Positions 31,187 through 41,147 of a stretch of 45,480 nucleotides of DNA are shown here, one piece after another (the first letter of the stretch is position 1; each line of letters opens with the position of its first letter). The notes below the pieces were generated by a model. The model saw only the letters and a list, made by a program, of their open reading frames with translations, did not search any database and was not told the origin of the DNA. The stretch spans positions 1 through 45,480 of the IMG/VR virus record IMGVR_UViG_3300022200_000090. The stretch is one strand, 5' to 3'. A program made the translations under genes and the position numbers. This stretch comes from a virus.

Positions 31187-32755
31187 TCAGAACAGTATAA
31201 ACGGCATTGGTTCTATAACTTCGTCGCCAAAGTCGGCAATTTGTGTGTTGAGTTCTGCATGGTAATTTTGTAGTACTTGCATCATACGTACCGCTAGTAC
31301 CGTTGCCATTACTAGATCATCGGTCTCGCCAATTTTAGCAGCATAGCTTGTTCCGTGTGCTACGAATGTTTTAAATTCTGATATAAGACTTTTGCTATTA
31401 ACAGTCATCTTTTTTGTTTCGACTAAGTTTTTGAGTTTAGCACAAGCAGAAATCTTAGATTTGTTGGTAGTGTTAAATCCTTTTCGTATACGCACACCAG
31501 AAGACCTAGACACTTTAGGTTCACTTAACATCATGCCCGGAAAATTGTCTTCACCAAATTCTGCTAAACTAATCAGCGCCGCTTCACCAATAGTGTTGTT
31601 TTCTATAGAATAATAAATGGAAGTACCATCTTGTGTTTTATCATAGATTGCTTTCACAATATCGTTAAGAATGCGTATCTGTGTTGGAATAGGTGTTTTG
31701 TTATGCTTCCACTCAGCAATTTGTGTTGTGCTATTCGCTTCGAATACCTGTATTGCTGCCGGATCCCCACCTGTGCCTAGACTAGGATCAAGTGCCACAA
31801 CGTATAACCGCCCAGGTTGTGGTTCTTTATACCATCTGACCTGCCCTGTTTTGTATACGGGTTCAACTCCTTCCATATCAACAAGTGTAGTAGCGTTAAT
31901 AAGAGTCTCGTCGTTGATAATGAATTCGCAATCCATTTCACGGCGGAAACGTTCTTCGCCAATGCGCCCACGTTCTTCTTCTGCCCACTTATCATCTCTA
32001 TCTGGATGATCTCTCCAGTAAGATCTATAGGCACGGAATCCGTTAATTCCTAGCTCTGTTTCGTTGCCAAACTCATCTTCTGTTTTGTTAGCTTGTTTCC
32101 AAATTAACGCGAACTGATCTTCGTCTGAGTTTGGTGTAGAGGTAATAATTGCCTTACCACCTGTTGATAGTGTGGGCGAAATGGAAGTCCAGAATTCTTT
32201 AGCAATACTAGGTCGAACAAACGCAAATTCGTCACAATATAATAGTGTAATACTCATACCACGCCCAGTGTTATCAGTAGTTGCTTGTGCCACGATACGT
32301 GATCCATTGTCAAATTCAATTGATCCTTTGTTATAGGATGTTACACCAGCACGTATGTGATCTGGGCATAATTCATATGCATAACGGATACGTTGCATAA
32401 TTTCCTGGGCGCCTGCGTATTTGTGTGCAGCAATCAATATCGTTGAATCTGGTTTAAACATACCATACCACAACAGATATCCTGCAGCACTGGTTGACTT
32501 ACCAGTTTGCCTGGGCATCAGACTAATACTAAATCGATAGTTATGATAGGTTTCAATCAATTGTTTTTGATATCCAAATGGATGATAAACCATTTTTCCT
32601 TTAGTAGGGTGTTGGATATAGAAAAAGTTATCCATGAAATACACAGGACCAAGAACTGGATCAGCACATTTTACAAACTCCTGTAATTGATCAGAAGTGT
32701 AGTTCATTTTAGCGTGTGCTTTTTTGGTCAATACTCCTTCAAGACTTTTTGACAT
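31187..32755 (-). CDS. 17: Terminase large subunit (DNA packaging ATPase/nuclease)
   Basis: Protein of 522 aa (T4 gp17: 610). N-terminal ATPase: Walker A-like MPRQTGKST (residues 80-88), Walker B LLYCDE (171-176) and coupling motif TSTPNS (205-210). C-terminal RNase H-type nuclease: ALDPSLGTGGDPAA, then IENNTIGEAALISL and the late acidic GETDDLVMA; these hold the three carboxylates. It pumps and cuts DNA concatemers at the portal. Relative to T4 it lacks part of the N-terminal region. The start has AAGGTAG. Gene 16 is not adjacent as in T4 but about 5 kb away. Confidence 0.97.
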   Translation of the reverse strand: MSKSLEGVLTKKAHAKMNYTSDQLQEFVKCADPVLGPVYFMDNFFYIQHPTKGKMVYHPFGYQKQLIETYHNYRFSISLMPRQTGKSTSAAGYLLWYGMFKPDSTILIAAHKYAGAQEIMQRIRYAYELCPDHIRAGVTSYNKGSIEFDNGSRIVAQATTDNTGRGMSITLLYCDEFAFVRPSIAKEFWTSISPTLSTGGKAIITSTPNSDEDQFALIWKQANKTEDEFGNETELGINGFRAYRSYWRDHPDRDDKWAEEERGRIGEERFRREMDCEFIINDETLINATTLVDMEGVEPVYKTGQVRWYKEPQPGRLYVVALDPSLGTGGDPAAIQVFEANSTTQIAEWKHNKTPIPTQIRILNDIVKAIYDKTQDGTSIYYSIENNTIGEAALISLAEFGEDNFPGMMLSEPKVSRSSGVRIRKGFNTTNKSKISACAKLKNLVETKKMTVNSKSLISEFKTFVAHGTSYAAKIGETDDLVMATVLAVRMMQVLQNYHAELNTQIADFGDEVIEPMPFILF

Positions 32756-32774
32756 ATTTTACTACCTTAATCGT

Positions 32775-32790
32775 GTATTTACGTAAATAC
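32775..32790. promoter_or_regulatory. Palindrome of two divergent late-like promoter boxes
   Basis: GTATTTACGTAAATAC is a perfect 16-base palindrome. Read on each strand it gives CGTAAATA: at 32776-32783 for gene 17 (minus) and at 32782-32789 for the HNH gene (plus). The gene 17 side has a leader with a ribosome site; the HNH side has five bases to its ATG. Confidence 0.6.
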
Positions 32791-32794
32791 CACG

Positions 32795-33337
32795 ATGGCT
32801 CATACATTAGTTTTAGGTCCGGATTACCAACCATTAAGTTATATTCCACTCAGTGCCGTGCATTGGCAACAAGCAATTAAACTATTGTTTCTTGACAAAG
32901 TGCATGTTCTAGAATGGTATGATGACTGGAACGTTCACAGTCAAAAGACTATCATGCGTGTGCCAAGTGTAATTGCATTAAAATCTGGATATACCAAACG
33001 CAAAACAAAAACGTTTAGCCGAACAAACTTATATATTCGCGACATGTTTCAATGTCAGTATTGTGGAGACACGTTTGCTCCAGCGCAATTAACAATTGAT
33101 CACGTTGTTCCCAAAAGCATGGGCGGTAAAACAGAATGGGATAACTGTGTCAGTGCTTGCAAACCGTGTAATTGGGCAAAGAGCGATCGACTGATTAAGC
33201 CTAAACGTTCTCCATTTACACCAGACTACTATCAATTGGCAAATTCAATACGCAAAACACAAATACGTATCAATCACCCTTCGTGGGCACAGTATTTAAA
33301 TCTAGAACAAGAACCCGTTGTAATTAATCAACGATAA
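32795..33337 (+). CDS. HNH endonuclease of the cellular CxxC-HNH-CxxC type
   Basis: Protein of 180 aa. The zinc/HNH domain is complete: CxxC (C87, C90), catalytic D102-H103, N117 and CxxC (C122, C125). The opening VLGPDYQPLSYIPL and VHWQQAIKLLFLDKVHVLEWYD is the N-terminal pattern of stand-alone HNH proteins in bacteria and phages, not of intron-homing LAGLIDADG types. It sits divergently beside gene 17, a frequent position for phage HNH nucleases that assist packaging. No Shine-Dalgarno is present, but a TAAATA box lies exactly five bases before ATG. Active-site residues are intact. Confidence 0.93.
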   Translation: MAHTLVLGPDYQPLSYIPLSAVHWQQAIKLLFLDKVHVLEWYDDWNVHSQKTIMRVPSVIALKSGYTKRKTKTFSRTNLYIRDMFQCQYCGDTFAPAQLTIDHVVPKSMGGKTEWDNCVSACKPCNWAKSDRLIKPKRSPFTPDYYQLANSIRKTQIRINHPSWAQYLNLEQEPVVINQR

Positions 33338-33440: not shown

Positions 33441-34580
33441 CTATAATGGTCCTAAGGCACAAGCCAGTTCAGGCCACAATTGGAGAAAATAGCCTGCTTT
33501 ATCAGTATGATATAGTGTTTCTATATCATGTATGTGCTGTGCGAGCTTCAACGCTTCGTCTTGTTCTTCAGCACTGTTAAAATTATTTAGTGCTGATATA
33601 AAGAAATCACGTTCACCAACGGTTAAATCTGTTCTGTCTAGTAATTTTTCTATTTCGTTAATTGCCAGTTGTTTGACTTGCTTGTTATGCTTGAGCGGAT
33701 CCAGATATGATGGCTGATATAAACTTTGCCATTGTATTTCTAATTGTTGGCTGCGTGCCCAATCAGTGAATTCATTCAAACATGTTGCATTATACAAGTT
33801 ATAAACCGCATGAATACCACCCCAATGTCCTTGATTAAACAATGATCTTAGTTTCTGTATATTGTGTTCCAATTGATCCCACTTGCCACCATACCTAACA
33901 TATTCATAGCGTTCATTTATGTTATCAAAACTTAAACTCCATCCCACATGCGATCGATTTTCTAATTTTTTAAAAACTTTATTCTTAGACAGATCCATAC
34001 TAAGATTAGTGATAACTGTAACAGTGATATCATCTGGAATAATATCTAATAGACGTTCATTTTCAGGTAACAACAACGGCTCTCCGCCAACTAGAGCTAC
34101 TTCTCGCATCCAATTTTGATACTGTTCTAAATAATTATGTACTTGTTGATAATAAGGACGAACTTGTGATTTAAATGGAATTCCTTTTAACGTTGCCCAT
34201 TTTGAACTGCATTTGTCTCCACAATAATTACAACTTTGATTGCAAGTGATGTTCCAACGTACATCAACCAATACAGGTCTATGATAATCTAATTCGGCTG
34301 AAGTTGGATCAAAATCCTCACTAACCGAATTGTGCCAATCTCGTTCACTGCGCCCGTATCGTTCTGCTTGAATACAATTATAACAATATTCTTCGTGCAT
34401 ACGACCTTGTTTAAGTGTGGCTCGAATTTCTTGTAACTTTTTTCCGTGAAGAATTTCGTTAATGCCCTGCGTGTTAAGATTTCCCAATATATTAGGATCA
34501 CCTGCACAGCAAGTTTTTACATTTCCGAAAGGATTGATGTGCAACCCATGCCACGGAGCGGCACAGTAAGTTTTATTCAT
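33441..34580 (-). CDS. Twitch/half-SPASM radical SAM protein
   Basis: Protein of 379 aa. The radical SAM motif CNQSCNYC gives C113, C117, C120, followed by a partial barrel with VALVGGEPLLLPEN (the GGEP SAM contact) and VTVITNLSMDLSKN. Ahead of it, residues 1-75 hold C6, C24, C25, C66 and C69 with the PWHGLHINPFGNVKTCC pattern typical of an auxiliary half-cluster domain, unusually placed at the N-terminus. This architecture is seen in phage 'twitch' radical SAM proteins of unknown product. No Shine-Dalgarno exists; TAAGTA lies five bases before ATG. It may modify a peptide or sugar, perhaps a virion component. Confidence 0.83.
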   Translation of the reverse strand: MNKTYCAAPWHGLHINPFGNVKTCCAGDPNILGNLNTQGINEILHGKKLQEIRATLKQGRMHEEYCYNCIQAERYGRSERDWHNSVSEDFDPTSAELDYHRPVLVDVRWNITCNQSCNYCGDKCSSKWATLKGIPFKSQVRPYYQQVHNYLEQYQNWMREVALVGGEPLLLPENERLLDIIPDDITVTVITNLSMDLSKNKVFKKLENRSHVGWSLSFDNINERYEYVRYGGKWDQLEHNIQKLRSLFNQGHWGGIHAVYNLYNATCLNEFTDWARSQQLEIQWQSLYQPSYLDPLKHNKQVKQLAINEIEKLLDRTDLTVGERDFFISALNNFNSAEEQDEALKLAQHIHDIETLYHTDKAGYFLQLWPELACALGPL

Positions 34581-37227: not shown

Positions 37228-37782
37228 TTAGCTTCCAACAGGACTCTTTGTGCCTTGCGGCAAATCGTTTGTGGTTGATGCTGCGGTAGTTTCGCCGCCG
37301 GCAATTTCATATTTACGAGTTTCCATATCCTTAACTACATCTTGGAAACTGTTGCCATATGCGTCTGCTGCGTCTTTTTGTTCTGTTGTTTGAGGAGGCA
37401 ACGCAGCGTCGTCTAACAATGCACCTTCATGTTCTTTAGCAGCAACTTCTGCATCCATGCTATCGTTAAATCTACGATCTAAAATTACAACACGATTTTC
37501 AGAAATACCTAATTTTTGCATTAATTCTGCTAATTGCCCTGTGCTTGCTGGATATTCAAAAACCACATCAAAAATATTCACAGACTCGTTTTCTAAGCCT
37601 GGAAAATCATATGGACATTTCGTCACTGGGGTGGTTTTCATGTCGCTCATGCTAACCATGTTAAACTTAGCAAAAAGTTTTTTTAGTGCATCGACATGTT
37701 CTTTAGGGCAATCGCCTGCGATTTTGATACGATATTCGTAATTCTTTTTAGATTCTGTTAAAAATTCTGTTAGCGAGCGCAT
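37228..37782 (-). CDS. Probable internal head protein with capsid-targeting-like N-terminus
   Basis: Protein of 184 aa. The start MRSLTEFLTES closely parallels the capsid-targeting sequence MKTYQEFIAE of T4 internal proteins, including a putative gp21 cleavage site after FLTE. The body contains YEYRIKIAGDCPKEHVDALK and VNIFDVVFEYPASTGQLAEL, an alpha-beta sequence widespread in aquatic phage late genes. It has its own late promoter box at 37806, and its ribosome site AGGAG is trapped in a 7-bp hairpin. That arrangement would permit translation mainly from late transcripts. Packaging into the head is inferred. Confidence 0.65.
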   Translation of the reverse strand: MRSLTEFLTESKKNYEYRIKIAGDCPKEHVDALKKLFAKFNMVSMSDMKTTPVTKCPYDFPGLENESVNIFDVVFEYPASTGQLAELMQKLGISENRVVILDRRFNDSMDAEVAAKEHEGALLDDAALPPQTTEQKDAADAYGNSFQDVVKDMETRKYEIAGGETTAASTTNDLPQGTKSPVGS

Positions 37783-37785
37783 TAT

Positions 37786-37803
37786 CTTAACTCCTGAGTT
37801 AAG
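37786..37803 (-). promoter_or_regulatory. Hairpin hiding the ribosome site of the 37228 gene
   Basis: In mRNA sense CUUAACU pairs with AGUUAAG around the loop CAGG. The AGGAG ribosome site (37791-37795) sits in the loop and 3' arm, 8 bases from the ATG at 37782. Confidence 0.65.
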
Positions 37804-37805
37804 TA

Positions 37806-37813
37806 TATTTATG
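37806..37813 (-). promoter_or_regulatory. Late-like promoter box CATAAATA before the hidden ribosome site
   Basis: The box lies between gene 16 and the 37228 gene. By T4 spacing the transcript would start near 37800, losing three bases of the 7-bp hairpin arm and freeing the ribosome site. Confidence 0.6.
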
Positions 37814-37815
37814 CG

Positions 37816-38298
37816 TCATTGTTTTTTATTTGAATTCAACAGTTTTTCAAGAAGCTCATTGCGATCCAACACGTGTCCAGATGCTGTCTCGCTGTCAGCG
37901 TCGCCTCTGTCAGCATCAAGTTTTGCCTTCTTTAATTGTAGATCAATCATTTTAAGTTTCTTATTCATCTTAGCAGTTTTAGCGGTAATAGCGTGTCCAA
38001 GCAATGAGCTTGCTACTGAAAAAATTTCTGAGCTAAATCGTGCTTCAACATTCATACCTAAATCAACTAAATCTTGATATGTTTTCATTGCTGTTTCAGC
38101 AAGTTGATCCATTTCTTTGTCAGATGCTTCAAGATTTTTAACAGCAGGCAAAGCAGCATCAATTTTTTCTAGATTGCTATACCCTTCGTATGTTTGCGGA
38201 ACACCAAATGATTCTTCGGGTTCTTCTATGATACTATGTTCATCTGAATCATTAGTTGAGGGAGGTAGATCAAAAAGTTCTTCGAGCTTGCGTGTCAT
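37816..38298 (-). CDS. 16: Terminase small subunit-like protein (gp16)
   Basis: Protein of 160 aa, like T4 gp16 (164). The central helices YQDLVDLGMNVEARFSSEIF (near residues 72-91), VASSLLGHAITAKTAKMNKK and LKMIDLQLKKAKLDADRGD match the conserved hydrophobic-then-basic coiled region of gp16 proteins in T4-like marine phages. It would form a ring regulating the large terminase. The first 40 residues are acidic and disordered. TAAATA lies five bases before ATG with no Shine-Dalgarno; the box overlaps the gene 4 stop. Gene 17 is 5 kb away, so the usual 16-17 pair is split. Confidence 0.78.
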   Translation of the reverse strand: MTRKLEELFDLPPSTNDSDEHSIIEEPEESFGVPQTYEGYSNLEKIDAALPAVKNLEASDKEMDQLAETAMKTYQDLVDLGMNVEARFSSEIFSVASSLLGHAITAKTAKMNKKLKMIDLQLKKAKLDADRGDADSETASGHVLDRNELLEKLLNSNKKQ

Positions 38299-41097: not shown

Positions 41098-41105
41098 TAT
41101 TTATC
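41098..41105 (-). promoter_or_regulatory. Late-like promoter box GATAAATA of gene 19
   Basis: The box lies 34 bases before the gene 19 ATG, with AGGAG in the leader, and directly after the gene 18 terminator. Confidence 0.7.
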
Positions 41106-41123: not shown

Positions 41124-41147
41124 AAAGGGGTCAATTAAGACCCCTTT
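41124..41147 (-). terminator. Rho-independent terminator of gene 18
   Basis: Perfect 9-bp stem AAAGGGGTC/GACCCCTTT with loop AATTAA, followed on the minus strand by TTTTTTGCC. It makes the tail sheath a single-gene transcript. Confidence 0.92.

Follow-up and report, generated by a model that had tools for sequence, protein, structure and literature searches.

A candidate promoter-removable translation lock in the late gene cluster of an uncultured T4-type giant phage

Features of the 37228 leader

The window analysed here, the whole 45,480-nucleotide stretch of IMG/VR virus record IMGVR_UViG_3300022200_000090, carries a virion gene cluster in which genes for the sheath, the tube, a second tube-like protein, a small ORF, a gp4-like protein and a phrog_16202 protein lie upstream of the gene that ends at position 37228 (the 37228 gene). 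Its product falls in phrog_14802, a head and packaging family of virion structural proteins, which does not in itself support the original prediction of an internal head protein. The PA5oct orthologue has been detected by mass spectrometry, according to its annotation. The N-terminus of the 37228 protein, MRSLTEFLTE|S, places LTE at residues 8-10, which we take to resemble the T4 prohead-protease site (L/I-x-E); a site of this kind would fit a head protein. A radical SAM-domain gene (33441-34580) is also found within the virion gene cluster. The features of the locus, in the order in which the minus strand is read, are the following.

37816..38298, minus strand: upstream ORF, phrog_16202, with stop TGA at 37818-37816
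37811..37817, minus strand: 5' strand of the outer helix, GACGCAT, made of the upstream ORF end and the box start (predicted fold)
37806..37813, minus strand: late promoter box of the T4 type, CATAAATA, with the ATG 23 nt further on (sequence)
37800, minus strand: predicted 5' end of the late transcript, 6 nt past the box (T4 rule)
37797..37803, minus strand: 5' arm of the inner stem, CTTAACT (sequence and fold)
37796-37793, minus strand: tetraloop CAGG (sequence)
37791..37795, minus strand: Shine-Dalgarno (SD) element AGGAG (sequence; accessibility computed)
37786..37792, minus strand: 3' arm of the inner stem, AGTTAAG (sequence and fold)
37775..37782, minus strand: 3' strand of the outer helix, ATGCG.TC, start codon included (37782-37778 and 37776-37775; predicted fold)
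37782-37780, minus strand: start codon ATG of the 37228 gene
37228..37782, minus strand: the putatively regulated gene, 184 aa, virion structural protein family phrog_14802

Near 37782 the minus strand reads ...AAACAA TGA CGCATAAATA TA CTTAACT CAGG AGTTAAG ATA ATG CGC TCG.... The inner hairpin (37803-37786) has a perfect 7-bp stem and forms an 18-nt inverted repeat. It had been described as a 7-bp hairpin locking AGGAG; the stem is present, but the SD is split, with AGG in the CAGG loop and only AG of its five bases in the stem. The late box that had been placed just upstream of the ribosome site is there, as CATAAATA at 37813-37806. In T4 the late box lies about one helical turn upstream of the transcription start (PMC2988020). 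The T4 spacing rule puts +1 at 37800, at which the CTT of the 5' arm would be lost and four pairs would remain, and the arithmetic of the original prediction, three 5'-arm bases stripped by initiation near 37800, holds under that rule. ATAAATA is rarer than chance in the window (7 observed against 21 expected), and five of the seven copies directly precede a gene start in the same orientation. No Rfam family matched the hairpin, and megablast against phage records gave no match. Between the divergent terminase and HNH genes of the window, a near-perfect palindrome (32755-32795) carries ACGTAAATAC on both strands and is possibly a pair of back-to-back late promoters.

Predicted folding of the read-through and late RNAs

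The minimum free energy of the read-through RNA in the window is -12.2 kcal/mol at 37 C, compared with -2.9 for an RNA starting at 37800, and in most close relatives the read-through structure reaches -13.3 kcal/mol. Opening costs were computed for the long and the short RNA over -18..+12 around the AUG. For the window, exposing the ribosome site costs 13.1 kcal/mol in the read-through RNA and 3.8 in the late RNA, a difference of 9.3, and SD accessibility comes out similarly for assumed starts from +4 to +8 after the box. In the predicted read-through fold the SD is partly paired and the AUG fully paired; the start codon is included because the outer helix GACGCAT/ATGCG.TC continues past the inner stem, and the box itself supplies part of the 5' strand through this predicted outer-helix pairing with the start codon. 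The claim that read-through transcripts would keep the hairpin thus stands in the predicted fold, but that fold is larger than had been described, the outer helix with the start codon having been missed.

The 18-nt inverted repeat also spans the start site and is conserved as DNA as well as RNA, as might be expected if the palindrome were a repressor operator over the late start site, comparable to the action of I-TevI on its own late promoter. Such a DNA-level signal is very improbable, given that a search of the window record returned only the known copy, that the SD lies inside the 18-nt element, which pairs in exact SD register, and that the outer helix runs on into the start codon.

A perfect stem of at least 7 bp spanning the SD has a probability of 0.0034 per random start region, or 0.0067 when the box, SD and ATG are held fixed. 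Among all starts in the window, that of the 37228 gene has the longest perfect stem, and no other start has one of at least 7 bp. When only the segment absent from the late RNA was shuffled, 5 of 1000 shuffles matched the observed opening cost (p ~0.005). Total opening cost ranks the 37228 gene 5th of 47 in the window and is therefore not extreme. One alternative is that the locus has an ordinary late leader with an incidental hairpin, in which the constraint comes from the promoter, the initially transcribed region, the SD and the first codons. We consider this possible though rather unlikely; against it, SD-spanning stems of at least 7 bp are expected about 0.16 times over the 47 genes. The sequence of the hairpin is by itself suggestive, and it is conservation that convinces.

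Conservation within the close clade

Relatives were drawn from viral contigs, and parsimony steps per site were counted on a ten-sequence tree. The spacer between box and SD (37805-37796) shows 0.10 steps per site, whereas the third codon positions of the upstream ORF show 2.31 and the 37228 gene, from codon 13 onward, shows 1.80. The block CATAAATATACTTAACTCAGGAGTTAAG is identical among close-clade phages whose 37228 proteins drop to as little as 66% identity; L273 has C-to-T at the first box base with the block otherwise the same. The tube-gene leader of the same contigs, unlike the 37228 leader, has a variable spacer between box and SD, which argues against an incidental hairpin, since an ordinary late leader in the same phages is not frozen from box to SD. 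In favour of an incidental hairpin, the synonymous sites of codons 1-12 of the 37228 gene are also constrained, past the paired stretch, so the constraint is not specific to pairing, and the sheath leader has a hairpin with the SD in its loop that the late RNA keeps.

The energetics are likewise retained. Opening costs in five close relatives are 10.4-15.5 kcal/mol for the read-through RNA and 3.6-3.9 for the late RNA, and the long-minus-short difference is 6.8-11.7 kcal/mol in six clade leaders, falling to 3.4 in the weakened relative L100. The hairpin is invariant in 7 of 8 distinct close-clade leaders and weakened in L280/L283, in which the inner stem goes from -5.2 to -2.1 kcal/mol while the gene, box, SD and outer helix are retained. 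Compensatory changes, which the original prediction proposed to look for among related phages, were seen at no pair, the arms being invariant, and this lack of covariation in the stem also favours an incidental hairpin. The changes in L280/L283 (CTTAAAT/AGTTTGAG) were considered as a compensatory re-registration, which the energy (-2.1) and the pair counts do not support; we regard them as a weakening.

Most close relatives terminate the upstream ORF at a TAA that lies within the box, 29 nt ahead of the ATG. A one-base insertion in the window shifts this stop 7 nt upstream, to the TGA at 37818-37816. This arrangement raises the alternative of translational coupling, in which a ribosome at the upstream stop would melt the hairpin and hand over the SD, the gene's own promoter then being a second, independent route. 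Under a ribosome-edge model, in which the terminating ribosome is taken to occupy some 9-13 nt beyond its stop, termination at the in-box TAA would bring the opening cost of 15.5 down to about 4, as in the late RNA, and in the window, with its stop 7 nt upstream, the cost would fall from 13.0 to 4.3-6.4; the model is crude, and the shifted stop in the window would weaken coupling. Stops that overlap the box are common in the gene family, but the overlap also occurs where no hairpin exists and so may reflect mere compact packing. We regard coupling as a tenable but less probable reading; were it correct, the lock could mean "only with a ribosome from upstream" instead of "off".

Directly past the 37228 gene (about 37230 down to 36600 on the minus strand), the nucleotide identity of close relatives falls to 30-55% and recovers about 650 bases on. 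This low-identity segment lies at the start of the next gene of the virion cluster and suggests a swapped or fast-evolving region.

The wider family and its late promoters

The 37228 gene is syntenic with the preceding phrog_16202 gene and the gp4-like gene before it in PA5oct, 121Q, RaK2, Vibrio 2.275, Erwinia Hallingskeid and Klebsiella Muenster, and the late-box motif precedes the 37228 homologue in all of these jumbo phages. A script located the box at the corresponding position in 84 of the 86 distinct homologous leaders; the remaining two also hold ATAAATA, the script having chosen another ATG. For phage CBB, a published study describes the ATAAATA that precedes structural genes as probably a late promoter (PMC5259590). 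A late sigma factor of the gp55 type was found in all five cultured relatives searched and in three of four large related contigs. Searches with phrog_234, phrog_12791 and a four-sequence profile did not find gp55 in the 212-kb closest relative, possibly a fragment, and searches with phrog_234 and phrog_12791 did not find it in the window, possibly a fragment as well; this weighs against the lock.

The late box is kept more widely than the stem. The 77 homologues outside the clade have long-minus-short differences of at most 4.4 kcal/mol, and distant relatives keep the gene and box with the stem absent. The original prediction named related phages with the gene but no stem as evidence that would refute it; such phages exist outside the close clade, with the box kept, and within the clade the stem is invariant in 7 of 8 distinct leaders. 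Since relatives keep the gene without the stem, the switch would belong to this clade and not to the gene. That the stem is clade-specific and that related leaders work without it are further points for an incidental hairpin; against them, the score of the 37228 leader is far outside those of the other homologues and near those of known T4 switches. In two homologous leaders (L102 and L123), the late box is itself part of a hairpin, ACTGTATAAATACAGT, that lies upstream of the SD.

Which RNA carries the lock

Two further features bear on the source of the read-through RNA.

41124..41147, minus strand: intrinsic terminator between the sheath and tube genes
41098..41105, minus strand: late box GATAAATA of the tail-tube gene (box at 41104), probable source of the read-through RNA

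A terminator-like hairpin occurs at the place of 41147-41124 in most close relatives, and no terminator-like site was found on the minus strand between the 41104 box and 37813. T4 genes of this class lie on early or middle transcripts (PMC2988022), and the original prediction extended their timing to the 37228 gene, with early transcripts locked and silent and late ones open. Strict timing of this kind is improbable here. The anatomy and energetics match those of the T4 cases, whose late genes sit on early and middle transcripts, and one perfect sigma-70 promoter lies upstream on the same strand (45403-45375). That promoter, however, lies at a distance of 7.6 kb, with the sheath gene and the strong terminator 41147-41124 in front of it; the intervening genes are all virion genes served by the late box at 41104, and the remaining sigma-70-like matches between are no commoner than in shuffles. 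Because the terminator separates the operon from the sigma-70 promoter and the nearest promoter inward of it is the late box at 41104, the locked read-through RNA is itself probably late. The class of mechanism proposed at the outset is probably right, as judged by promoter placement and a score near the T4 cases, but its early-silent, late-on timing is unsupported in view of the terminator and the 41104 box.

The sheath leader (44461-44394, minus strand) has GGTGAAACTA just before its late box, and codons 3-6 of the gene contain the exact reverse complement, TAGTTTCACC. The sheath read-through RNA would enclose the ribosome site (-19.3 vs -5.9 kcal/mol), and the pairing is present in L274, L183 and L279 and absent in L177, L179 and L277. 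An early-type promoter and a nuclease gene directly precede the sheath gene, and no terminator was found in between; the sheath gene is therefore a better fit to a T4-style timing switch than the 37228 gene.

Calibration on T4

The long-minus-short score was run without annotation on all motif-fitting late-box leaders of T4 (n=32). The top five were e, 49, I-TevII, segB and I-TevI, with scores from 14.1 to 11.3, followed by a next score of 7.8, and for these same five, control by a hairpin that the late promoter strips away has been reported (PMC3014915, PMC2988022). The scan did not recover soc, also a reported case, for which the motif picked TTAAATA with a score of 1.0. The score of the window (9.3) and those of its relatives (10.0-11.7) adjoin the T4 top five.

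The closest comparison is with the T4 lysozyme gene, e, in which the 5' strand of the stem that sequesters the SD is encoded by the late box or lies next to it and is missing from the late transcript (PMC3014915), as predicted for the 37228 leader. The scores place the two in the same class (14.1 for e compared with 9.3 for the window and 6.8-11.7 for close relatives). The cases differ in that gene e is carried on early read-through transcripts and experiments show its repression to be about 100-fold, whereas the lock on the 37228 gene is a computational prediction and its upstream RNA is most likely late. Gene e of the T4 relatives Aeh1, 44RR, 25 and 31 is without the structure (PMC3014915). 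The geometry of T4 49, I-TevI, I-TevII and segB and of Aeh1 mobE is also like that of the 37228 leader (PMC2988022), but these are nuclease genes in early or middle units and 37228 is a virion gene in a virion-gene cluster. The 37228 leader has, in prediction, a late box by the ribosome site, SD and AUG paired in the long RNA, and a transcription start inside the 5' strand; it differs from the T4 class in that the gene does not appear to sit on early or middle read-through transcripts, though leaky early read-through is possible.

Proposed mechanism

On balance we favour reading the 37228 leader as a promoter-removable translation lock situated in a late gene cluster, and as such it is probably a new variant of the T4-type lock, placed within the late operon of uncultured T4-type giant phages. 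Computation provides the elements of this lock, their energetics and their conservation in the clade. In the read-through RNA, the box, leader and start codon would fold into a two-part hairpin that hides the SD and AUG, and free 30S subunits would be unable to load. RNA from the gene's own late promoter (starting at ~37800) would lack the 5' strand and leave the ribosome site open. The output of the gene would then track its own promoter rather than the long tail and neck transcript, which is a more likely role than early/late timing; the lock would not time early against late, because the RNA arriving from upstream most likely originates at the tube promoter (41104) and is itself late. Some translation of the long RNA may occur when a ribosome ending the upstream ORF melts the lock. 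We infer the transcription start, the folding of the RNA in the cell, the effect on translation and the purpose of the arrangement from these predictions.

T4 is known to apply such logic to a small number of late genes that are caught on early transcripts. Should the logic also hold for virion genes of a late cluster, the choice between RNA from the gene's own promoter and RNA reading through from upstream could set the ratios of structural proteins.

Structured late leaders in other phages

In the shuffle test, leaders at p<=0.05 numbered 11 of 32 in T4, 13 of 48 in 121Q, 5 of 36 in PA5oct, and 6 of 26 in the window together with the 212-kb relative, where two genes are counted twice as orthologues; this enrichment is a lead only, because it is computational and the null destroys the box. 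The late leaders of 121Q and PA5oct show a comparable excess of structure that the late RNA would lose, but in genes other than 37228, whose orthologues in the two phages have low scores (2.5-2.6). The second-ranked leader of 121Q belongs to a virion gene, the gp13-like neck gene. No report of the 121Q and PA5oct late leaders as switches was found in the literature searched. More speculatively, promoter-removable locks on ribosome-binding sites may be a general layer in T4-type jumbo phages, by which virion genes inside late operons (37228, perhaps the sheath gene, and the 121Q gp13-like neck gene) would follow their own late promoter or an upstream ribosome and not the long polycistronic RNA; we hold this wider claim to be unlikely as it stands. 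The T4-validated scan provides a ranking of candidate leaders in cultured phages, 121Q among them.

Strong structure that the late RNA would lose also occurs in late leaders at 260936 and 35042 in 121Q, at 134990 in PA5oct, and, in the relative G001, at 7156 of L266 and 206 of L264. These include the 121Q neck gene, 548, with CACCTC/GAGGTG pairing across the box, and L264, with a ATACTTAAC/GTTAAGTAT pairing.
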